A stretch of DNA of 64,000 nt from Verrucomicrobiota bacterium (GCA_026397715.1 JAPLUN010000420.1:44533-108532), one strand, 5' to 3'. Counted from the first letter of the stretch, positions 39,020-49,171 are shown. Program-made: numbers and translations. The notes: generated from the letters alone by a model not told the origin.

Positions 39020-39061
39020 TCTCCGCCGACAGGCTTCTGCCGCAGCGCGCGTTCTTTGCGC

Positions 39062-41959
39062 ATGTCTCGCTGCTTTCTCTTCCTGCTGCTTTCAGCCAGC
39101 GCCTTCGCCCAGCTCGCCAACAGCCCGCCGGTGCCTCAGTGGCTGGCGGCACCCGATGCCGGCACGACCTTCACCCAGACCGTGAAGCATGAGGGCAAGC
39201 TGCTCAAAGCGGTGCTGCTCACCGCCAGCGATGGCGCGGTTGAGATCATGCTCGATGGCAAGAGCATCGCCACCGTCAAAGCCGCCGAAACCGCGACTGG
39301 CACCGACCTCACGCAGCAGCTGGGTGATGGCAAAGCGCATCAGCTTGGGCTGCATGTGCACGGCAAAGCGAAGACTGCCGCAAGACTGGAGCTCAATGGC
39401 GATCTCGCCGCCGTGCGCTGGATCGCCACCGATGCCGCGTGGCAGAACGCGGTGGTGGCAGGCCCCACCGATGCCGATCCGGCCACGAACCCCTTCGATT
39501 TAAAGAAGACCTTCGACGCCTACAACTCCTGGCAGCTGGCCAAACCGGGCGCGCAGAATCAGGCCACCGATCCCGCCACGCTCACCTTGCCGCCGGGTTT
39601 CAAAGCGGAGCTCATCCGCTCCGCGCAGGCGGGTGAAGACTCCTGGGTGTCGATGGCGTTTGATCCGCAGGGCCGCATAACGCTGGGCAAAGAGAAGAAG
39701 GGACTGCTGCGCCTCACACTCAGCGGCAGCGGCGACCAGAAGGTGGAAGTCATCGACGATGAGCTGCTGGAGTGCCGCGGCTTGCTGTATGCGCACGGTT
39801 CGCTGTTCGCCAACGCGAACAACTCGAAGACGCTCTACCGTCTCACCGACACGAACGGCGACGGCACCTTTGACGAGCGCAAAGAACTCGTCCGCACCGA
39901 AGGCGGCGTGGGTCATGGCCGCAATCACATCAAGCTCGGCCCGGATGGCGACATCTACGTGGCGCATGGCAACAACGTGCTGCTGCCCAAGAACCTCGAT
40001 CCCGACTCACCGCTGAAGAACTACGCCAATGACCAGCTCATCCCGAACCCGTGGGACAGCAGCATGTTTGACGGCAACGTGGAACTGCCCGCCGGCCACA
40101 TCCTGCGCGTGAAGCCGGATGGCAGCAAAGTGACGCTCCTCGCAGGTGGTTTGCGCAACCCGCTCGACATTGCTTTCAATAACAGGGGCGACTTGTTTAC
40201 GTTTGACGCGGACATGGAGCGTGATGTGGGAACGCCTTGGTACATGCCGACGCGAGTACTGCAGATTGTGCCCGGGGGTGACTACGGCTGGCGGCGTGGC
40301 ACGGGACGTTTTCCGGCGTGGTATGCGGACACGTTGCCGAGTGTGATCGATATTGGACTGTCGTCACCCACGGGGATTTACTTTGGGTATGGGGCGGAGT
40401 TTCCGCAGAAGTATCAAGACGCGCTCTACCTCCTCGACTGGAGCTATGGGCGCATCATCGCGGTGCATTTTGACAGCACCGTGACGCAGGAAACATTCAT
40501 TGCAGGCAGGCCGTTGAACGTCACCGACGGCTGTATCGGCCCTGACGGGGCTATGTGGTTTATCACGGGCGGACGCGGAACCCAGAGTGGACTCTATCGT
40601 GTGACATACACAGGTGCCGACCTTCAGAAAGCTCAGCCAGTTGCGCCAGTGAAAGGGAATCTACACACGGAAGCAATGACCAAGGCCAAGGAGAGGTTGA
40701 TTGGATCAATGCGTGCGTCGAGTGAGCCAGAGCCAGACCTGGATTTTATCTGGCGGAGTCTCTATGGTTGGTCGACTCCCACCGAAATTCGGTTTGCAGC
40801 CCGCCTCGCGCTTGAGCGCATTCCCGCAGCCCAATGGAGACAACGGGCGTTGAGAGAAAATGATAAAGACGCGACGATGGCCGCCCTGCTGGCCCTGGCA
40901 CGAGTGGGAACGGCGGAAGATCTGTCGCCCATCCTGCAACGGGTCGTGACGTTCTACCGAGACGAAGCTTTTTCGGTGGCTGCGCTTCGCACCATCAGCG
41001 TGGCCTGTGCGCGACTCGGAAGGCCGGGCGATGAAGATCAACGCAGGCTGCTGAACCACGCGGAACGCTTCTACCCGGTTTATGGAGATAAAGAAGATCT
41101 CCTTTACCAAGACCCGACCTTCCTCAACCGCGAGCTCTGCCGCCTGCTCGTCTATTTGAAATCTCCGAAGGTCATCGAGAAGACGATGCCGCTGCTCAAG
41201 GCGGCCACGACTTCGGAGGACCTCTTGTTTTACCCCTTCATGCTGCGCTATCTCAAGGACGGCTGGACGCTGGAGCAACGGAAGATCGCGTTTGAGGCGC
41301 TGAACAAGGCGGAGAAGATGAACGGGGCCTCGACCTTCTTCAAAGCGATCAGCGACACGCGCAGCGAGCTGGCGGCGGCGCTGAAGCCGGAGGAGGCCAC
41401 GCAGCTCGCAGCGGTAATCTCGCCGGCGAAGCCTGCGGTGCTTTCTGCGCATGCGCTGCCGGGGCATTCGTTCAAGAACTGGACGCTGGAAGATCTGACC
41501 CCATTGCTGGCGAAGATGGATGCGAAGACGCGCAGCCGCGACAGCGCGAAGGATGCGCTCATTCGTGCGCAGTGTGTGTTCTGCCATAAAGTGAGCAATG
41601 ACCCCGCGCTGCCAGCGGGTGTGTTTGGGCCGGATCTGGTGCAGGTGTCTGCACGCTTCAACCGCCGCGATCTGCTGGATCACATCTTGAATCCCTCCAA
41701 GTTCATCGACGAAAAATTCCGCTACGTGACGGTGAAGACCAGCGATGGCAAAACGATCACCGGCAGTCTGGAAAGCGAGGACGATGAGCGCGTGGTGCTG
41801 AAGCCGAATCCGCTCGCTCCCGAGAAGAGCGAGATCGCGAAGGCGATGATCAAGGAGCGCAGCGTGTCGGAGATTTCACCGATGCCGCAGGGCTTGCTCA
41901 ATTCGCTGAAGGCAGAGCAGATTCTCGATCTGCTGGCGTGGTTTGAGAATTTGAAGTGA
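39062..41959 (+). CDS. PVC-type membrane-bound dehydrogenase/HEAT/haem-binding protein
   Basis: 965 residues from MSRCFLFLLLSASAFA, a signal peptide (a TTG two codons earlier is less likely). From about 180: LPPGFKAELIRSAQAGEDSWVSM and further repeats such as GRGTQSGLYRVTY form a six-bladed propeller typical of PQQ-like or membrane-bound dehydrogenase domains. Helical HEAT repeats occupy about 540-840, and the end carries CVFCHK (CXXCH) with the 'haem-binding, Pirellula/Verrucomicrobium type' pattern GVFGPDLVQVSARF. These proteins are PVC-specific. Substrate unknown; likely periplasmic oxidation of sugars or sugar alcohols. Confidence 0.85.
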   Translation: MSRCFLFLLLSASAFAQLANSPPVPQWLAAPDAGTTFTQTVKHEGKLLKAVLLTASDGAVEIMLDGKSIATVKAAETATGTDLTQQLGDGKAHQLGLHVHGKAKTAARLELNGDLAAVRWIATDAAWQNAVVAGPTDADPATNPFDLKKTFDAYNSWQLAKPGAQNQATDPATLTLPPGFKAELIRSAQAGEDSWVSMAFDPQGRITLGKEKKGLLRLTLSGSGDQKVEVIDDELLECRGLLYAHGSLFANANNSKTLYRLTDTNGDGTFDERKELVRTEGGVGHGRNHIKLGPDGDIYVAHGNNVLLPKNLDPDSPLKNYANDQLIPNPWDSSMFDGNVELPAGHILRVKPDGSKVTLLAGGLRNPLDIAFNNRGDLFTFDADMERDVGTPWYMPTRVLQIVPGGDYGWRRGTGRFPAWYADTLPSVIDIGLSSPTGIYFGYGAEFPQKYQDALYLLDWSYGRIIAVHFDSTVTQETFIAGRPLNVTDGCIGPDGAMWFITGGRGTQSGLYRVTYTGADLQKAQPVAPVKGNLHTEAMTKAKERLIGSMRASSEPEPDLDFIWRSLYGWSTPTEIRFAARLALERIPAAQWRQRALRENDKDATMAALLALARVGTAEDLSPILQRVVTFYRDEAFSVAALRTISVACARLGRPGDEDQRRLLNHAERFYPVYGDKEDLLYQDPTFLNRELCRLLVYLKSPKVIEKTMPLLKAATTSEDLLFYPFMLRYLKDGWTLEQRKIAFEALNKAEKMNGASTFFKAISDTRSELAAALKPEEATQLAAVISPAKPAVLSAHALPGHSFKNWTLEDLTPLLAKMDAKTRSRDSAKDALIRAQCVFCHKVSNDPALPAGVFGPDLVQVSARFNRRDLLDHILNPSKFIDEKFRYVTVKTSDGKTITGSLESEDDERVVLKPNPLAPEKSEIAKAMIKERSVSEISPMPQGLLNSLKAEQILDLLAWFENLK

Positions 41960-41997: not shown

Positions 41998-42060
41998 GGT
42001 AGAGCGGGCAATCTTGCCCGCGCAGCAGGCGGCTTCTCGGGCAAGATTGCCCGAGCTACC
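41998..42060. repeat. Palindromic repeat, GCGGGCAATC family, copy 2
   Basis: 23-base arms (41998-42020 and 42038-42060) pair with two mismatches around a 17-base loop. The arms are close to the palindrome at 17781-17842 (GTAGAGCGGGCAATC here, GTAGTGCGGGCAATC there). Confidence 0.85.
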
Positions 42061-42143
42061 ATGGCTTCGCACACGTCCCTGCCACATGCCTGCCTTTTGC
42101 GCCGCACAGTTGACACGGCGCATGAGGCTACCATACTCGCACC

Positions 42144-42569
42144 ATGTCCTCCTGCTCCAAAGCATCGCTGCTGCCGCGAATCGCGCGGCTGGTGATCGTG
42201 GGGACGATCTGTCTGTCTCTGGGTCTGCACTGGGCCTTGCTGCAAGGCGTCGCGTGGGCGGGGATGCTGGTCTCCTTTGCCAGCAAAGGGACGGTGCTGG
42301 AGGCGGTGCAGAAAACCTTCGATGGGCAGCACGGCTGCCCGCTTTGCAAAAAAGTGAAGGAAGGCAGCAACTCCAACCGCAAGCAGCCGCAGCAGGCGGG
42401 ACAGTCCATGCAGAAGATCAACGCTGTGCTGGTGGAGATGACGACCTTGGTCGCACCTGCAGGAAACATTTTCTCATTCGTGCCGCTGCACGAAACGTTG
42501 GTGCAACGCACCGAACTGCCGGAGACGCCACCGCCACGATACGGCAGCAACCTCCGCTCTCTGAGTTGA
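42144..42569 (+). CDS. Small membrane protein with FDGQHxCxLCKKVKEG motif, copy 1
   Basis: 141 residues. One N-terminal membrane helix (LVIVGTICLSLGLHWALLQGVAW), then EAVQKTFDGQHGCPLCKKVKEG, which holds a CXXC, then a less conserved tail with VAPAGNIFSF and ETPPPR. It is a paralogue of the protein at 44328. The CXXC and neighbouring His suggest metal binding. It resembles DUF2946-type proteins in layout, though not clearly in sequence. It opens the metal-related gene block. Confidence 0.75.
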   Translation: MSSCSKASLLPRIARLVIVGTICLSLGLHWALLQGVAWAGMLVSFASKGTVLEAVQKTFDGQHGCPLCKKVKEGSNSNRKQPQQAGQSMQKINAVLVEMTTLVAPAGNIFSFVPLHETLVQRTELPETPPPRYGSNLRSLS

Positions 42570-42716
42570 GCCTCATGCACGCACCCGCCGCCTGAACTCG
42601 CAGGCGTGTGATCTGCCGCGTGTCTGCAAACACCCCATCCGCACCGCCATGCCCTGAAGGGACGCACATGGCGCGTGAGGTCTTCAGTTCATGCGTCCCT
42701 ACTCATTCATCTTTTC

Positions 42717-43205
42717 ATGTTCCTTTTTTCAAAACACCTCCTCGCAGCCGTTTGCGTGCTGCCCTTCACTTCACTCATCCACGCTCAGGAAGCGGCTCCT
42801 TCGGCGGAGTCCCTCACACGCGGCCAGACGGTTTACATGCAGGTCTGCTTCGCGTGCCATCAACCCACCGGTCTGGGCCTGCCGGGCATGTTTCCGCCGC
42901 TGGCCAGCTCGGACTGGGTGGCGGCGAAAAAGCCGGATCGCATCATCCGCATGGTGCTGCATGGCTTCACCGGACCCATCACGCTCAATGGCAAACCCTT
43001 TGCCTCTCCCGCGCCGCTGATGCCGCCACAGGGTGCGGCACTGAGCGACACGCAAATCGCCGATGTGCTGAGCTATGTGCGCAGCAGCTTTGGCAACAAA
43101 GCGGGGGCCGTCACGCCCGCTGAGGTCGCTGCCATCCGTGAGGCTGAGAAGGCGCGCAGCGCGATGTGGACGGAGGCCGAAATCCTCAAAATCCCCACCG
43201 AATAA
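42717..43205 (+). CDS. Class I cytochrome c
   Basis: 162 residues from MFLFSKHLLAAVCVLPF, a signal peptide. The haem-binding site is CFACH (Cys44, Cys47, His48), with a downstream Met in SPAPLMPPQG as axial ligand. It is a small periplasmic mono-haem cytochrome. The SCO-like gene starts 4 bases after its stop. Confidence 0.88.
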   Translation: MFLFSKHLLAAVCVLPFTSLIHAQEAAPSAESLTRGQTVYMQVCFACHQPTGLGLPGMFPPLASSDWVAAKKPDRIIRMVLHGFTGPITLNGKPFASPAPLMPPQGAALSDTQIADVLSYVRSSFGNKAGAVTPAEVAAIREAEKARSAMWTEAEILKIPTE

Positions 43206-43209
43206 CACG

Positions 43210-43935
43210 ATGCCGGATTCACCTTCAGAGTCTCCGTCTCCGGGCATTCGCTACACCTCCGCCGGTGATGATCTTCGCGTAAGCACCGGCTCCTGGGTGC
43301 GCATGGTGCTGGGCATCGGCATGGCCATCGCGGGTGTGCTGGTGCTGGGGCATTACGCCCGGCAGGCGCTCCCGCAGGCACCGCTGCCAGTGGTCACGCA
43401 AATCAAAAGCGACCTCGAAGCCACCGAGCGCAGCGGGCAGACGGTGAAACTTTCCGCCCTGCGCGGGAAGGTCACCGTCATGGCCTGTCTCTACACCGTG
43501 TGCCCGCATGGATGCGCGGCGGTGGTGGCGCAGATGCAGAAGCTCAATGCCGCCTACCGCACGCGGCCGGATTTCCATCTGGTCTCTCTTGCGGTGGCGC
43601 CGGAGCGCGACACCTCGGGCTTCCTCAAGGCCTACGCCGAAGGCGTGGGTGCCAGGCCCGAAGATCCCTGGTGGTTCGTGACCGGTGAGCAGCAGCGCAT
43701 CTGGGACTACATGACTCATGATCTGCAGCTGCAGGCTCCCGCCGCCATCCCGGAGGAAAAGCGCATCAACCCGCTGGACCTCTACGAGCACGACCTGCGC
43801 ATGGTCCTCATCGACCGTCAGGGCCGCGTGCGCGGCTACTACGCCGTCTTCCACCCTCAAGCCGAGATCGCCACGATCATGACTGAAAAGCTCAGCCGTG
43901 ACGTGCAGCGTCTTCTCGACAACCCCGCTGAATAA
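43210..43935 (+). CDS. SCO1/SenC-like copper chaperone
   Basis: 241 residues from MPDSPSESPSPG. An N-terminal membrane anchor (MVLGIGMAIAGVLVLGHY) is followed by a thioredoxin fold: VKLSALRGKVTVMACLYTVCPHGC has the CXXXC copper/thiol motif, and DLYEHDLRMVLIDRQGRV near the end contains the usual His. SCO proteins deliver copper to cytochrome oxidase or act as thiol reductases. The family normally has a longer loop around the cysteine pair. It sits between the cytochrome c (4 bases) and the HMA protein (25 bases). Confidence 0.85.
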   Translation: MPDSPSESPSPGIRYTSAGDDLRVSTGSWVRMVLGIGMAIAGVLVLGHYARQALPQAPLPVVTQIKSDLEATERSGQTVKLSALRGKVTVMACLYTVCPHGCAAVVAQMQKLNAAYRTRPDFHLVSLAVAPERDTSGFLKAYAEGVGARPEDPWWFVTGEQQRIWDYMTHDLQLQAPAAIPEEKRINPLDLYEHDLRMVLIDRQGRVRGYYAVFHPQAEIATIMTEKLSRDVQRLLDNPAE

Positions 43936-43960
43936 TCAACACACCCCACATCCAAAATTT

Positions 43961-44278
43961 ATGAAACACCTTCTCACACTCCTCCTCAGTCTCATCACCA
44001 TCGCCTCATGCAACGCCGGAGATCCGGTGACATTCGTCTATCAGGGCGAAGTCGCGGGCATCATGTGCATCCACTGCACCAACAAAGTCGAAGCTGCGAT
44101 GAAGAAGCTCCCCGACGTGCAGAGCGTCAAAATCACGCGCAATGAAAAAGGCGGCCTGCCCAGGCTCGAAATCATCGCCACCAACGCGAGGATCACCCGC
44201 GAAGACGCCGTGAAGGCGCTGGGGGACGATGCGAAGATGTATGACATCCGCAGCCTGAAGCTGGTCAAGGCGAAGTAA
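43961..44278 (+). CDS. HMA (heavy-metal-associated) domain protein
   Basis: 105 residues from MKHLLTLLLSLITIASC, an exported or lipoprotein-like signal. The HMA domain has GIMCIHCTNKVEAAMKKLPDVQSVKI, where CIHC is the CXXC metal-binding site, then RLEIIATNARITREDAVKAL. Such proteins bind Cu(I) or other soft metals in the periplasm. It lies between the SCO-like gene and the second small membrane protein. Confidence 0.85.
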   Translation: MKHLLTLLLSLITIASCNAGDPVTFVYQGEVAGIMCIHCTNKVEAAMKKLPDVQSVKITRNEKGGLPRLEIIATNARITREDAVKALGDDAKMYDIRSLKLVKAK

Positions 44279-44327
44279 CCCCGTGCATGTCTTGACACTG
44301 AAACTCCCGCTTCCATAATCGCCCCGC

Positions 44328-44750
44328 ATGTTTCCCGCCGCATCTGCACCTCCACGTCCCTGGCTGCGCCACGCGCAGCGCGGGACGGTGCTGCTGCTGT
44401 GCCTGGCGCTGGGGCTGCAATGGGCGCTGCTGCAAGGCATCGCATGGACGGGGATGTTCATCAGCTTTGCGCGTGAGGGATCGGTGATCGAGGCCGTGGA
44501 GAAGACCTTTGACGGGCAGCATGCCTGCGAGCTGTGCAAGAAGGTGAAGGAGGGGACGCAGGACTCCAACAACCACGAACAAGGCACGCAGGAAGAGGGT
44601 GCCGGGAAGGGGCTGGCTGCGGTGCTCACGAGCACCGTGGTGCTGATTCCTCCCGCAGGAGATACGATTTCATTCGCGATGATTCGCGAAATGATGGTGA
44701 AGCGAAACGAGATGCCGGAGACGCCACCGCCACGACGCGGGCAGGTCTGA
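44328..44750 (+). CDS. Small membrane protein with FDGQHxCxLCKKVKEG motif, copy 2
   Basis: 140 residues. Same design as the protein at 42144: helix LLLCLALGLQWALLQGIAW, then EAVEKTFDGQHACELCKKVKEG, then IPPAGDTISF and a last ETPPPR. The two share roughly the helix-to-motif stretch and diverge in the tail. Two hairpins follow it, and the TonB receptor starts 119 bases on. Confidence 0.75.
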   Translation: MFPAASAPPRPWLRHAQRGTVLLLCLALGLQWALLQGIAWTGMFISFAREGSVIEAVEKTFDGQHACELCKKVKEGTQDSNNHEQGTQEEGAGKGLAAVLTSTVVLIPPAGDTISFAMIREMMVKRNEMPETPPPRRGQV

Positions 44751-44758
44751 ACAAGCAG

Positions 44759-44812
44759 AGCGGTTTTGGAAAACCGCTGCTCTCCTCCATACGCCGGGCT
44801 TCGAAGTCCGGC
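44759..44812. repeat. Two short hairpins before the TonB receptor gene
   Basis: AGCGGTTTTGGAAAACCGCT (44759-44778) and GCCGGGCTTCGAAGTCCGGC (44793-44812) are near-perfect palindromes in a 119-base gap. They could terminate or attenuate transcription into the receptor gene. No T-tract. Confidence 0.55.
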
Positions 44813-44869
44813 CCACCCCCATGCGCATGCCGCCTTCTCTGCGGCTGCCATTTTGCCTCTCATTATTTC

Positions 44870-46993
44870 ATGAAACCATTTTCTATTCTCTTTTCTCTCT
44901 CTCTGACCGGCGCTGCGCTCGCGCAGCCTGCCACCTCGAAACTCCCCCCGACGACCGAACTCAAGGAAGTCATCATCACGGCGAAGAAAGATTCGCCTTC
45001 ACTCACAGTCCCAAGCCTGGAACTCCGCAAGGAACAGATCGCTGCATCCACGCCCGGCGGCGCCGGTGTGGTGGACGCGGAGTTTTACAAACGCGGCCGT
45101 GCCTCCACGCTGAAGGACGCGCTGGACTTCGCACCCGGCGTGCTGATTCAATCGCGCTTCGGTGCGGAGGAGTCGCGCCTTTCCATCCGTGGCTCCGGCC
45201 TGCAGCGCACCTTCCATGGTCGCGGCATCTGGTTGATGCAGGATGGCATCCCGCTGAACCTGGCGGACGGCGGCTTTGACATGCAGGCCATCGAGCCGCT
45301 GACGGCGAACTACATCGAAGTCTTCCGTGGTGCGAACGCGCTGCAGTACGGCTCCTCCACACTCGGGGGTGCGATCAACTTCATCTCCAACACGGGCTAC
45401 ACCGCGCCTGCCAGCCAGGCGCGCGTGGAGATCGGCAGCTTCAACACGCAGCGCGCGCAGATCTCCTCCGGCTTTGTCAGCGGGAACACGGATGTGTACG
45501 TGAGCATCACCGCTTCCCACACGGACGGATTCCGCGACTGGAGCAAGCAGGAGAGCTTCCGCGTCTTTGCGAACGTGGGCACCAAGATCAGCCCGAACTT
45601 GGAGAACCGCATCTACGTCACCTATGTTGACAGCAACTCCCAGCTCCCCGGAAACCTGACCAAGGCGCAGATGCAGGCCAATCCGCAGCAGGCCGCGCGG
45701 GGTTCCTTCATCCCGACCGCGCCCGGCGGCGCAGGCTACCAGGAGCGCAACTACCGGCTCTTCCGTCTGGCGGACAAGCTGACCTACAGCGACGGAGACA
45801 ACACCCTGACGCTGTCCACCTTCTGGTCATGGAAGGATCTGAATCATCCGATCTTCCAGGTCATTGACCAGCTCAGCAACGACCTCGGCTTTGACCTGCG
45901 CTACGAGCACAAGGGCAGTCTGCTGGGGCATGAAAACACCCTCACCGTGGGCACGGGCTTCATGTATGGCGGGACGAATGACAACCGCTTCTTCAACATC
46001 AATGGCTCACGTGGTGCGCAGGTGGCCGCCTACCGCCTGCAGGCCACGAACTTCAACTTCTACTTCCAGGACAAGCTGCAGCTCACGGAGAAGCTCTCCG
46101 CGTTTGCCGGTGCGCAGGTGGCCTATGCCTCACGCGAGCTGGACGAGCTGCAGTTCTTCACCGGCCCCAATCCGCCCGGCCAGTTCGGCCTGCCAAACAC
46201 CTTCAACAACAGCGACCGCCTGGAAGCCTGGGGCTTCAGTCCAAAACTCGGTCTGCTCTACGAAGTGGACCCCAAGACACAGATCTATTTCAACGCGAGC
46301 CGCAGCTTCGAACCGCCCACCTTGGGCGAGGCCACACCCGCCGGCACGGGCCTGCTGCAGTTGAAGCCGCAGACCGCCACCACCTTGGAAATCGGCACGC
46401 GCGGCCAGCGCGACCGTGTCTCCTGGGACTTCAGCTACTACTATGCGTGGGTGGAGCGCGAGCTGCTCGGCCTGGGCTCCCCCATCCTCACCCCCACGAC
46501 CACCGTGAACGCCGGCAGCACCATCCATCAGGGCGTCGAATTCGCGCTGAATGCGGATCTGCTGCGCGGCCTCGCGGTTTCATCCGACCGCCTGGTTCTG
46601 AACCAGAACTTCCTCTGGAACAACTTCAGCTTCAACAAGGACGCCGCCTATGGCAGCCGCCTGCTGCCCGGCTACTCGCCGGTGTATTACCGCGCGCAGC
46701 TCATCTATGAGCATCCCTGCGGCTTTTACGCCGGCCCCACGCTGGAGTGGTCTCCCTTCCGCTATGCCGCCGACCTGGCACGCACCACCTTTGCAGATCC
46801 GTATGCGCTGCTGGGCCTGAAGTTCGGCTACCGCACCAAGAAGGGCCTGTCCTTCTACGTTGAGGCCCGCAACCTCACCGACGAAAACTACAGCCCCACC
46901 GTCAACGTGGTGACCAATGCCACCACCTCCCCCGCCGTGTTCCTTCCCGGCGACGGCCGCTCCTTCTACGGCGGCATCGAGTGGAAGTGGTGA
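44870..46993 (+). CDS. TonB-dependent outer-membrane receptor
   Basis: 707 residues from MKPFSILFSLSLTGAALA, a signal peptide; the 112-codon upstream part in the track overlaps the previous gene. ELKEVIITAKKD is a TonB-box-like start. The plug follows (STLKDALDFAPGVLIQSRFG, ESRLSIRGSGLQRTFHGRG, YGSSTLGGAINFISN), then the barrel, ending in YGGIEWKW. It imports a metal complex or siderophore with ExbBD/TonB energy. Copper- or iron-type cargo is inferred from the neighbours. Confidence 0.9.
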   Translation: MKPFSILFSLSLTGAALAQPATSKLPPTTELKEVIITAKKDSPSLTVPSLELRKEQIAASTPGGAGVVDAEFYKRGRASTLKDALDFAPGVLIQSRFGAEESRLSIRGSGLQRTFHGRGIWLMQDGIPLNLADGGFDMQAIEPLTANYIEVFRGANALQYGSSTLGGAINFISNTGYTAPASQARVEIGSFNTQRAQISSGFVSGNTDVYVSITASHTDGFRDWSKQESFRVFANVGTKISPNLENRIYVTYVDSNSQLPGNLTKAQMQANPQQAARGSFIPTAPGGAGYQERNYRLFRLADKLTYSDGDNTLTLSTFWSWKDLNHPIFQVIDQLSNDLGFDLRYEHKGSLLGHENTLTVGTGFMYGGTNDNRFFNINGSRGAQVAAYRLQATNFNFYFQDKLQLTEKLSAFAGAQVAYASRELDELQFFTGPNPPGQFGLPNTFNNSDRLEAWGFSPKLGLLYEVDPKTQIYFNASRSFEPPTLGEATPAGTGLLQLKPQTATTLEIGTRGQRDRVSWDFSYYYAWVERELLGLGSPILTPTTTVNAGSTIHQGVEFALNADLLRGLAVSSDRLVLNQNFLWNNFSFNKDAAYGSRLLPGYSPVYYRAQLIYEHPCGFYAGPTLEWSPFRYAADLARTTFADPYALLGLKFGYRTKKGLSFYVEARNLTDENYSPTVNVVTNATTSPAVFLPGDGRSFYGGIEWKW

Positions 46994-47005
46994 GGGCCTC
47001 CTGCT

Positions 47006-47149
47006 GTAGGATGGGTGTGGCGACAGCCCGCCCGTCCCTCAGCGCATCGAAAACACACCGGCCTGCGAACGTTCTCGCAGTCGGGCGGTTTGGCGAAGCC
47101 ACTTTGATGTGATTGAGAGAACCCCATCCGCCAAACACACCCAACCTAC
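47006..47149 (-). repeat. 145-bp interspersed repeat, copy B (inverted)
   Basis: Reverse complement of the element at 37560-37704. Starts GTAGGATGGGTGTG on the plus strand and ends CACACCCAACCTAC. It lies between the TonB receptor and the PepSY gene. Confidence 0.85.
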
Positions 47150-47195
47150 GGCCAAGCCACCCCACCGTTCGTCATTCGTCATTTCCTTTCCCCTC

Positions 47196-47900
47196 ATGAA
47201 CTCCCGCCTCATCCGCAAACTCCACCGCTGGCTCGGCCTGCTCTTCAGTGTCTCCGTGCTCATCGCCTCCGGCAGCGGCGTCCTGCACAATGTCATGACG
47301 CGCACCCAGGCGCCACCACCGCAGGCGAAGCCCTCGGGCGGCGGCATGGATGTGAACGCGATCAAAGTCAGCGTGGCCGAGGCGGTCGCCAAACTGGCCG
47401 AAGAAAAACCCGAGGTGCAGGCGGTCAATCTGCGCGGCATCGGCGGCCAGCCCTGGTACCAGATTTACACCAAGACCTCACGCGCACCGCAGTACGTCAG
47501 CGCCGTGGATGGCAAGGTGGACTCCGCCATGGATGAAGCCTACGCCGCCGAGATCGCGAAAAATTTCCTCGCTGGAGCCGGGGTGAAAAAGACGGACTTC
47601 CTCACCGCCTTCAACACCGAGTACATCAACATCTTCCGCATCCTGCCCGTGTACCGCTTTGACACCGGAGATGCGCTGGACACCCGCGTCTATGTCTCCA
47701 CCACCACCGGCAGCGTGACGCGCCACACCGACAAGCAGCGCCAGTTTGAAGCCACCGTGTTCACAAACTTCCACAAGCTCGGCTTCATCCCCAACAAGGA
47801 CACCCGCGACCTCGTGCTCACCGTGGTGACCTTCGGCGTCTTCCTCGTCGCCTGCCTCGGCATCGCGCTTTTCTTTGCCACCCGGCCAAAGAAACGGTGA
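47196..47900 (+). CDS. PepSY-associated transmembrane protein
   Basis: 234 residues from MNSRLIRKLHRWLGLLFSV (track start 29 codons earlier, inside the repeat). RKLHRWLGLLF and the N-terminal helix, then PepSY-like segments IKVSVAEAVAKLAEEK and YVSTTTGSVTRHTDKQRQF, and a final helix VTFGVFLVACLGIALFF. PepSY-TM proteins often accompany TonB receptors for siderophores and can act in ferric reduction. It follows the receptor, separated only by the repeat. Confidence 0.8.
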   Translation: MNSRLIRKLHRWLGLLFSVSVLIASGSGVLHNVMTRTQAPPPQAKPSGGGMDVNAIKVSVAEAVAKLAEEKPEVQAVNLRGIGGQPWYQIYTKTSRAPQYVSAVDGKVDSAMDEAYAAEIAKNFLAGAGVKKTDFLTAFNTEYINIFRILPVYRFDTGDALDTRVYVSTTTGSVTRHTDKQRQFEATVFTNFHKLGFIPNKDTRDLVLTVVTFGVFLVACLGIALFFATRPKKR

Positions 47901-47932: not shown

Positions 47933-49171
47933 ATGCGCCGCCTCCTGCTCCTCACTCTGCTGCTCGCAGGTTGCGGCCGTGAGGTGAGGCAGGTGCCCCT
48001 GCCAGCGCAGGCCTATGTGTGGCAGCGGGCTTGGACTCCGGAGGTGTCAGCGGCAGTGCGTGCATCCGGGTTCGATGCCCTGCATGTGCTCGCCGCCGAG
48101 TTCAGCTACAAGAATGACAAGCCCGAGATCACGGTCATCACCCCTGACTGGCGGGCGCTGGGAGATTCTGGCAGGCCAATCAGCGCGGTGCTGCGCGTGC
48201 ATGCTTCCGTGGGGAAAACCGGCTGGAACGAAGCGCTGATCCAGGAGATGCGCCGGCTGTGCACCGACACCGTCTCCCGGTTCAAAGCCGGTGGCGTGAG
48301 TGTGGCCGAACTTCAGCTCGACTATGACTGCGCGGAATCACGACTGGCAGACTACGCGCGGCTGCTGGGCGCTTTGCACACGGACGTTCGCATCTGCATC
48401 ACCGCACTGCCCGCGTGGCTGCGGCATGCCTCGGCGAAGAATCTGCTGCGCCTGTCTCCCGGTTATGTGCTTCAGGTGCACTCCCTGCACCTGCCGAAAA
48501 ACGGTGGCCTGACCGGGCTCATGGATCTGAATGAAACGCACGCGGCGGTGGAGCGTGCGGAGCAGATTGGCGTGCCGTTTCGCGTGGCGCTGCCGACTTA
48601 CTCCTGCGTGGTGGAGTTTGCGGACGATGGCCGCGTACGCGAAGTGCACGGCGAGGACATGCCCGCCGGCCTTGCCCTCAGCAGCCGCAGCTATGCGGTG
48701 CTCGATTCGGATGCCTACGCTTTGTCGGCGCTCATTGCGGACTGGCGTGCCCATGCTTCCCCGCTTATGCATGCTATTATCTGGTATCGTCTGCCAGTCA
48801 GCGGCGACCGCCTGAACTGGTCCGCAGAATTGCTGAACAAGGTCAGCATGGGCGAAACGCTCAAGCGCGGCTGGGTGGCGGCGGTCCGTCCCAACAAAGA
48901 AGGCCACAGTGAAATCATTCTGCAACAAAAGGGCGAAGCGCCGGATGATCTGCCGCATGAAGTGCTGGTCTCATGGCAGGGTGGCGAGACCGAGGGCTGC
49001 GATGGCCTGCGTGGCTACAAGGTCACGAAGCAGGCGCCCGGGAGCCTGACACTGAGGCTGGAGCAACCGGCACGTTTTGGACGTGTGCAGCCGGAGCAGC
49101 AGATCGTGGCCGGGTGGCTGCGCCTGCCGGAGGGGCCGGAGGTGAAAATGGCGGCGCGCATAATTCGTTGA
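47933..49171 (+). CDS. DUF3142 lipoprotein
   Basis: 412 residues. Signal and lipobox LLLAGC, then YVWQRAWTPEVSAAVRASGFD and ELQLDYDCAESRLADYARLL, the DUF3142 signature, with TIM-barrel-like repeats (VRICITALPAWL, PFRVALPTYSC). It may be a glycosidase-like surface protein; activity unknown. The next gene starts 42 bases later, likely in the same operon. Confidence 0.8.
   Translation: MRRLLLLTLLLAGCGREVRQVPLPAQAYVWQRAWTPEVSAAVRASGFDALHVLAAEFSYKNDKPEITVITPDWRALGDSGRPISAVLRVHASVGKTGWNEALIQEMRRLCTDTVSRFKAGGVSVAELQLDYDCAESRLADYARLLGALHTDVRICITALPAWLRHASAKNLLRLSPGYVLQVHSLHLPKNGGLTGLMDLNETHAAVERAEQIGVPFRVALPTYSCVVEFADDGRVREVHGEDMPAGLALSSRSYAVLDSDAYALSALIADWRAHASPLMHAIIWYRLPVSGDRLNWSAELLNKVSMGETLKRGWVAAVRPNKEGHSEIILQQKGEAPDDLPHEVLVSWQGGETEGCDGLRGYKVTKQAPGSLTLRLEQPARFGRVQPEQQIVAGWLRLPEGPEVKMAARIIR

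Follow-up and report, generated by a model that had tools for sequence, protein, structure and literature searches.

Small CXXC proteins with proline-rich tails as probable copper-responsive arrest-peptide leaders in Verrucomicrobiota

Two similar small proteins, each with one predicted membrane helix and a CXXC motif, are located among genes for metal-handling proteins at positions 42144-47900 of a stretch of 64,000 nucleotides (nt), referred to here as the window, from a Verrucomicrobiota bacterium (GCA_026397715.1, JAPLUN010000420.1:44533-108532), and the question that this locus raises is what the two proteins do there. A preliminary description, made from the sequence alone, had regarded them as working parts of a new system for copper (or other soft-metal) acquisition or cytochrome assembly, a role that our comparative analysis does not support. 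Because their helix end, their CXXC and their PPP(R/K/Q) tail are conserved, and because they are located first behind a promoter, with a long gap to the next gene, the small open reading frames (ORFs) match the type of regulatory upstream open reading frames (uORFs). By analogy with characterised leader proteins, we consider it probable that they are copper-responsive arrest-peptide uORFs, which control the import of copper and the supply of copper to the oxidase.

Small protein 1 (42144..42569, + strand, 141 residues) and small protein 2 (44328..44750, + strand, 140 residues), both predicted to be copper-sensing arrest uORFs, are 49-55% identical; they carry the motifs TFDGQHGCPLC and TFDGQHACELC, respectively, and share the tail PETPPPR, with 10 residues following the last PP in small protein 1 and five in small protein 2. 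Profile searches of loci from the genus and from a phylum sample have given 131 matches, with 130 complete members, 129 of which have been aligned. Three conserved parts stand out: the end of the helix (QxxAWxxM), the CXXC site (TFDGxHPCxLC) and a proline cassette (P[PE]xPPP[RKQ]) that is located a few residues before the stop codon. At the helix end, the methionine is present in all 129 aligned members, the glutamine in 125, the tryptophan in 124 and the alanine in 119; in the sensor region, both cysteines occur in all 129, the threonine in 128 and the phenylalanine in 123, with a histidine two residues ahead of the first cysteine in 74; in the tail, the last two prolines are found in 127 and 129 members, and the next residue is arginine, lysine or glutamine in 119. 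The preliminary description had pointed to the CXXC and to a histidine: the former is present in all 130 complete members, the latter is only frequent, and the C-terminal PETPPPR had gone unmentioned.

Information across the alignment peaks at Q-A-W-M, T-F, C..C and PPP(R); in the stretch between the CXXC and the tail, conservation is mostly low, single positions excepted (e.g. a proline in 96 of the 129 members). The tail is located 1-14 residues from the stop codon, mostly 3-5, and the distance from the second cysteine to the last PP is 63.6 +/- 3.3 residues (range 56-72). A PP occurs within the last 22 residues in 129 of the 130 complete members, the remaining one having a PPP with a longer tail, and it is present in 183 of all 186 members known to us; a PPP in the last 12 residues is found in 105/129 members, versus 7/969 control ORFs of at least 250 residues, which include some non-genes. 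The codons of PPPR vary freely, many combinations being used, which argues that it is the peptide, and not the RNA, that is under selection. In one sub-branch (loci L217, L218, L222, L233 and L116), PVPI takes the place of PPPR at the end of the proteins; PVPI or PIPI endings occur in a few members.

This pattern bears on a different role for the small proteins, i.e. that of membrane-anchored copper chaperones or docking factors, whose CXXC would bind periplasmic Cu(I) and whose PPPR tail would bind TonB, SCO or the receptor. Such a role would fit the single predicted membrane helix and the location of the CXXC proteins next to SCO and HMA genes, and it was also the role first assigned to CutF (PMC8456105), a leader protein that is discussed below; it would leave unexplained why the chain between the CXXC and the tail is mostly poorly conserved, and why the proline motif is pinned to the last codons at a spacing from the CXXC like that of an arrest sequence. 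Moreover, the downstream partners vary (TonB receptor, outer-membrane barrel, SCO, MauG, tonB, extracytoplasmic function (ECF) sigma factor), which makes a single binding partner unlikely, and a chaperone needs neither the constant first position nor the long leader; we therefore regard this role as unlikely.

As regards an N-terminal signal peptide, the small proteins show a hydrophobic helix with N-terminal arginine residues. The AlphaFold2 model (pLDDT 76, pTM 0.37) has a helix at residues 11-50 and the CXXC at the opening of a helix at residues 68-87, and beyond the helices and the position of the CXXC it offers too little to use; the invariant methionine at the helix end may aid the binding of Cu(I). 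An N-terminal helix together with a C-terminal arrest motif is also the build of SecM, VemP and ApdA-type peptides, and the small proteins could be taken for monitors of membrane targeting that sense their own insertion, the metal genes being incidental. We hold this to be very improbable, as the neighbouring genes are not sec or yidC and an invariant CXXC is foreign to such monitors.

Altogether, the family comprises 186 distinct members from the loci of the genus, the phylum sample and a named genome collection. The small proteins are more than chance ORFs: of 37 related genomes, 32 encode relatives and, under strict thresholds, members are found in 69 of the 289 sampled Verrucomicrobiota genomes. 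A pattern search of 84,980 species returned 79 matches, 74 of which encode relatives, and all titles that name a phylum or a lower rank are Verrucomicrobiota; the pattern was [KMD]TFDGEHP only, which members from other phyla with a different motif would escape. The two small proteins have no match in Pfam, NCBIfam or PHROGs, 44 diverse members have no credible match in Pfam or NCBIfam, and we have found neither plasmid or viral copies nor a description of the family in the open-access literature. At loci L057, L058 and L037, two or three members occur in tandem, at times before the same genes, as if they were serial sensors.

Each small ORF is located behind a promoter of its own. The seven genes are all present on the + strand in the order listed in the preliminary description (small protein 1, cytochrome c, SCO, HMA protein, small protein 2, TonB receptor, PepSY protein), as supported by ORF calls and by Pfam and NCBIfam matches, but they do not form the single block that it had proposed: promoter 1 (TTGACA-16-CATACT, 42110..42137, + strand) ends its -10 box 6 nt upstream of the ATG of small protein 1, and promoter 2 (TTGACA-16-CATAAT, 44292..44319, + strand) ends its own 8 nt upstream of the ATG of small protein 2. 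Since these near-consensus promoters directly precede both small-ORF start codons, the genes fall into two transcription units, with one of the small proteins at the head of each. No other promoter-like site occurs in the 6.1 kb that have been scanned. Of the distinct sites in genus loci that have an exact TTGACA, a spacing of 16-18 and a good -10 box, all 15 are located 6-11 nt before the start codon of a family member. Nine sites of similar pattern occur in the 6.76-Mb genome, two of them being promoters 1 and 2.

Transcription usually starts about 5-9 nt past the -10 box. With -10 boxes at 6 and 8 nt from the ATG, the mRNAs would therefore begin at the start codon or within a few bases of it, and those of both units are probably leaderless. 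A leaderless start as a trait specific to the family has been considered and rejected: in four of the seven other strong-promoter sites of the genome the start codon is likewise located 9-11 nt downstream of the -10 box, and this arrangement seems to be usual in the organism. Among the more distant family members, several have GTG starts 6-7 nt from the -10 box, and many have no clear promoter. Ahead of promoter 1, a palindromic repeat similar to repetitive extragenic palindromes is located at 41999-42058; relatives have similar palindromes (GTAGANCG...) in the leader that precedes their TonB receptor. At another locus of the genome, L240 (G000:C69:5907), a strong promoter is followed 11 nt later by a hydrophobic small ORF of 85 residues ending in SSIPVP, possibly an unrelated leader peptide.

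Each small ORF is separated from the next gene by a long leader. The leader before the cytochrome c gene (42570..42716, + strand, 147 nt) is C-rich, with no Shine-Dalgarno sequence seen; the leader before the TonB receptor (44751..44869, + strand, 119 nt) contains hairpins (44759-44778; CCGGGCT..AGTCCGG; GCATGCCGCC..GCGGCTGC), followed by a pyrimidine tract and an ATG without a Shine-Dalgarno sequence. Across the family, a median of about 130 nt separates the small ORF from the next gene, and most cytochrome-SCO and SCO-HMA gaps are at most 26 nt, all of these figures being derived from simple longest-ORF gene calls. In the genus, the leaders before the TonB receptor are largely conserved in length (about 107-147 nt), the last of the three hairpins, which is GC-rich, is largely kept, and the ATG again follows a pyrimidine tract with no Shine-Dalgarno sequence. 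The leader hairpins are stable and almost without compensatory support (2/16 pairs), two of them resemble mobile palindromes, and the predicted consensus hairpins leave the start codon uncovered. No intrinsic terminator has been found on the + strand between the small ORFs and the next genes, nor a credible match to the RNA elements of Rfam in the block.

Leader proteins of comparable anatomy are known. CruR of Bordetella pertussis, a DUF2946 protein of 145 residues with a CXXC and a C-terminal RAPP, heads the crtA-crpH operon: the ribosome stalls at RAPP in the absence of copper, and the operon is transcribed, whereas with copper on the CXXC the ribosome is freed and Rho ends transcription (PMC9426467). 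The arrest has been shown in vitro (PMC12992588), and CrtA, a copper TonB receptor, and CrpH, a PepSY_TM protein, serve the supply of copper to respiratory oxidases (PMC12914433, PMC13038864). The verrucomicrobial proteins resemble CruR and DUF2946 (PF11162) in their length of about 140 residues, their N-terminal export signal or helix and their C-terminal PP motif (three residues from the end); among the features by which such proteins are recognised, they have the CXXC and the place of first gene in a copper operon with a long leader (162 nt in Bordetella), followed by a TonB receptor and PepSY_TM, and DUF2946 operons also hold SCO and PCuAC. The exact gene set had been called unfamiliar as a described system; its core has been described, since a CXXC leader with a TonB receptor and PepSY_TM, sometimes with SCO, is the set of Bordetella cruR-crtA-crpH (PMC9426467, PMC12914433, PMC13038864); of the verrucomicrobial leader family itself we have found no description. 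Here, the tail is of the PPPR type, RAPP or RGPP occurring in 0/186 members, and the CXXC-PP spacing of 56-72 residues (mean 63.6) differs from that of 45-48 in eight DUF2946 controls. Searches with PF11162 gave nothing over its cut-off in the 37 genomes or in the 44 diverse members, and hhalign of the family versus seven DUF2946 sequences, a small and Burkholderiales-heavy set, returned a probability of 0.8%. Membership in DUF2946 has been rejected on these grounds: no Pfam match, no profile match, no RAPP and a different spacing.

CutF of Rhodobacter capsulatus carries a CXXXC and the tail P109EPEGPPPRL118, both of which are essential for the expression of the next gene, which copper turns on (PMC8456105, PMC9973294). 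It is likewise a small protein with a Cys motif and a C-terminal PP (PEPEGPPPRL versus PETPPPRRG here), exported as the verrucomicrobial proteins may be, and it is required for the expression of the next gene, acting through translation; it differs in its CXXXC, its spacing of 45 residues and its control of a copper-induced multicopper oxidase. The published CutF-like set comes mostly from Pseudomonadota and Bacteroidota, whereas the present family belongs to Verrucomicrobiota; among the rules for that set, both window proteins follow those on length (fewer than 150 residues), a PP in the last 15 residues, a Cys motif and a downstream same-strand gene within 1000 nt (PMC9973294). The RAPP/RGPP arrest peptides (ApdA, ApdP and CruR) are small too, exported as the present proteins may be, and end in a proline arrest motif; they are located upstream of TonB- and copper-related genes (PMC12992588), but a search for their motifs would miss the family described here. 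In the verrucomicrobial proteins, a CutF-like tail comes together with a CruR-like gene set; fast-changing sequences of 140 residues are not suited to deciding on shared descent with DUF2946 or CutF.

Taken together with these parallels, the anatomy of the small ORFs suggests a mechanism in which each would act in cis, as a nascent chain, to sense a metal, most likely copper. RNA polymerase would start near the start codon, probably giving a leaderless mRNA; the N-terminal helix would insert into the membrane with its N-terminus inside, displaying the CXXC outside the ribosome; and the ribosome would slow or stall at PPP(R/K/Q) when about 64 residues separate the CXXC from the peptidyl-transferase centre. 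In CutF, the site at a spacing of 45 has been placed in the periplasmic vestibule of SecY, counting about 30 residues within the ribosome and about 17 to cross (PMC9973294); counted in this way, a distance of 64 residues from the active centre would put a site clearly outside the translocon, which suggests that the metal is sensed in the periplasm. Metal on the CXXC would alter the stall, perhaps helped by the invariant methionine and the frequent histidine. The sign of the response is most likely that of CruR, i.e. low copper would keep the stall, with the downstream genes transcribed or translated, and copper would release it, with expression stopping in the intergenic leader. Unit 1 would thereby govern cytochrome c, SCO and HMA, for the delivery of copper to the periplasm and the terminal oxidase, and unit 2 the TonB receptor and PepSY protein, for the uptake, and possibly the reduction, of a copper chelate.

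The opposite sign, following the logic of CutF, would have the metal prolong the stall, whereupon the ribosome would open up RNA structure within the leader, and an excess of metal would turn the gene on. The CutF-type PPPR tail is in keeping with it, as are the hairpins that the receptor leader keeps in the genus and the lack of a Shine-Dalgarno sequence there; however, genes for uptake and oxidase supply are expected to go up in copper shortage, as they do in Bordetella, and the start codon is not covered by the predicted hairpins, so that we consider this logic doubtful.

Several points weigh against copper-responsive arrest altogether. No homology to DUF2946 is demonstrable, and the analogy with arrest uORFs rests for this reason on anatomy; PPPR differs from RAPP, and the tails of CutF by themselves did not stall strongly in Escherichia coli (PMC9973294). 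Conserved proline tails could also bind a partner protein. The bias of the leader for C over G is weak (p = 0.018), which makes the Rho step a guess, and 22 of the 129 members have no recognised neighbour. That Verrucomicrobiota have evolved copper-sensing arrest peptides of their own, phylum-wide and independent of DUF2946, with leaderless starts, a PPP(R/K/Q) stall and a CXXC about 64 residues away that reads periplasmic copper, is a broader proposal that we put forward tentatively, at somewhat less than an even chance. If it is true, nascent-protein control of copper would extend to a third major phylum and be the rule there (69/289 genomes), and there would be a second, non-RAPP motif of metal-gated arrest, near that of CutF, with a fixed distance between sensor and motif. 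A PPPR leader gene could then serve as a marker for finding undescribed copper genes, the PqqU-near TonB receptors, MetA-type barrels and CorA/MauG pairs found behind such leaders being candidates for copper uptake, and the 186 natural variants would be a ready mutational series.

The choice of copper as the ligand is guided by the neighbouring genes. A search for neighbours, which the preliminary description had called for, has borne out that the family travels with genes of this kind: behind 107 of the 129 members there is one or more of TonB receptor, outer-membrane barrel, SCO, HMA, PepSY, cytochrome c and MauG/propeller protein. Individually, the TonB receptor occurs with 73 members, the MetA-type outer-membrane barrel with 21, SCO with 19, HMA and PepSY with 15 each, cytochrome c with 14 and the MauG/propeller protein with 13; Pfam names among the neighbours include MauG, a CorA Cu(I)-binding protein (L056), NosL, TonB and the ECF sigma factor. 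The lack of any cytochrome, SCO or TonB neighbour, which had been named as evidence against the earlier proposal, applies to a minority of members (46/129, by profiles derived from the window), about half of which precede outer-membrane barrels or MauG/CorA a few tonB or an ECF sigma factor, and some genes that are not recognised. An arrest uORF might instead sense another soft metal, the redox state or disulfide formation, as the CXXC by itself leaves the metal undefined and Ni/Co genes are found behind CutF-like relatives that have His motifs (PMC9973294); with SCO, the CorA Cu(I)-binding protein, MauG and NosL as neighbours, all pointing to copper, we find such a ligand distinctly unlikely.

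At two loci (L056:2274-8999 and L060), genes for a di-haem protein of the MauG type and a Cu(I)-binding protein of the CorA type come after the small protein, a pair that we take to resemble the copper-repressed CorA/CorB of methanotrophs. At loci L143, L147, L149 and L150, from genomes of about 2.2-2.5 Mb, an ECF sigma factor gene is located behind that of the small protein, and at L140 and L145, from genomes in the same size range, tonB is.

In the window itself, the copper context that had been proposed is upheld by the SCO and HMA genes of unit 1. The cytochrome c gene (42717..43205, + strand) encodes an exported class I protein with CFACH (Cytochrom_C, 7e-12); its ORF opens at GTG 42675, and ATG 42717 is the better start. 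It is followed by a copper chaperone of the SCO1/SenC type (43210..43935, + strand; 7.6e-14), which scores 52.3 bits over a Pfam cut-off of 22.8 and retains the metal ligands, CPHGC being the CxxxC of SCO and the distal histidine being located within YEHDLRMVLID, and then by an exported, CopZ/MerP-like HMA-domain protein with CIHC and a signal peptide (43961..44278, + strand; 2.4e-5). A CuA-type COX2 is encoded in the same genome. The starts at 42717, 43210, 43961, 44870 and 47196 have been preferred over those of the longest ORFs, as signal peptides follow them, and the receptor start at 44870 is also backed by relatives in the genus.

Import across the outer membrane, also proposed earlier, is represented in unit 2 by the TonB-dependent receptor (44870..46993, + strand; barrel 1.3e-34, plug 7e-16) and the PepSY protein. 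PqqU/YncD is the nearest solved relative and best match of the receptor (145 bits in the Protein Data Bank (PDB), 152.8 bits in NCBIfam), but the NF041535 cut-off is 1200 bits. Import of pyrroloquinoline quinone (PQQ) has been rejected as its function, with the score far below that cut-off and the PQQ contacts Q84, Y99, Q121, K274 and R304, placed by eye on the alignment, not kept. Like CrtA (PDB 9RVQ/9RVX), the receptor is encoded between a leader gene and a PepSY gene; it scores only 33.6 bits to 9RVQ, versus 145 to PqqU, and judged by bit score is probably not of the CrtA subfamily, so that a copper cargo is predicted from the gene context. The PepSY_TM protein (47196..47900, + strand; 2.1e-5) is short, with 235 residues and two membrane helices, seen by eye as hydrophobic segments, compared with the at least four of CrpH, and its match of 24.9 bits is just under the Pfam cut-off of 28.8.

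Directly upstream of the block, a large PVC-type heme-binding CxxCH protein (TIGR02604/TIGR02603) is encoded at 39056-41959 on the + strand, separated from unit 1 by promoter 1. About 30 nt past the PepSY gene, a DUF3142 lipoprotein is encoded at 47933-49171 on the + strand; such a gene is also found behind PepSY in locus L038, and here it is perhaps part of unit 2.

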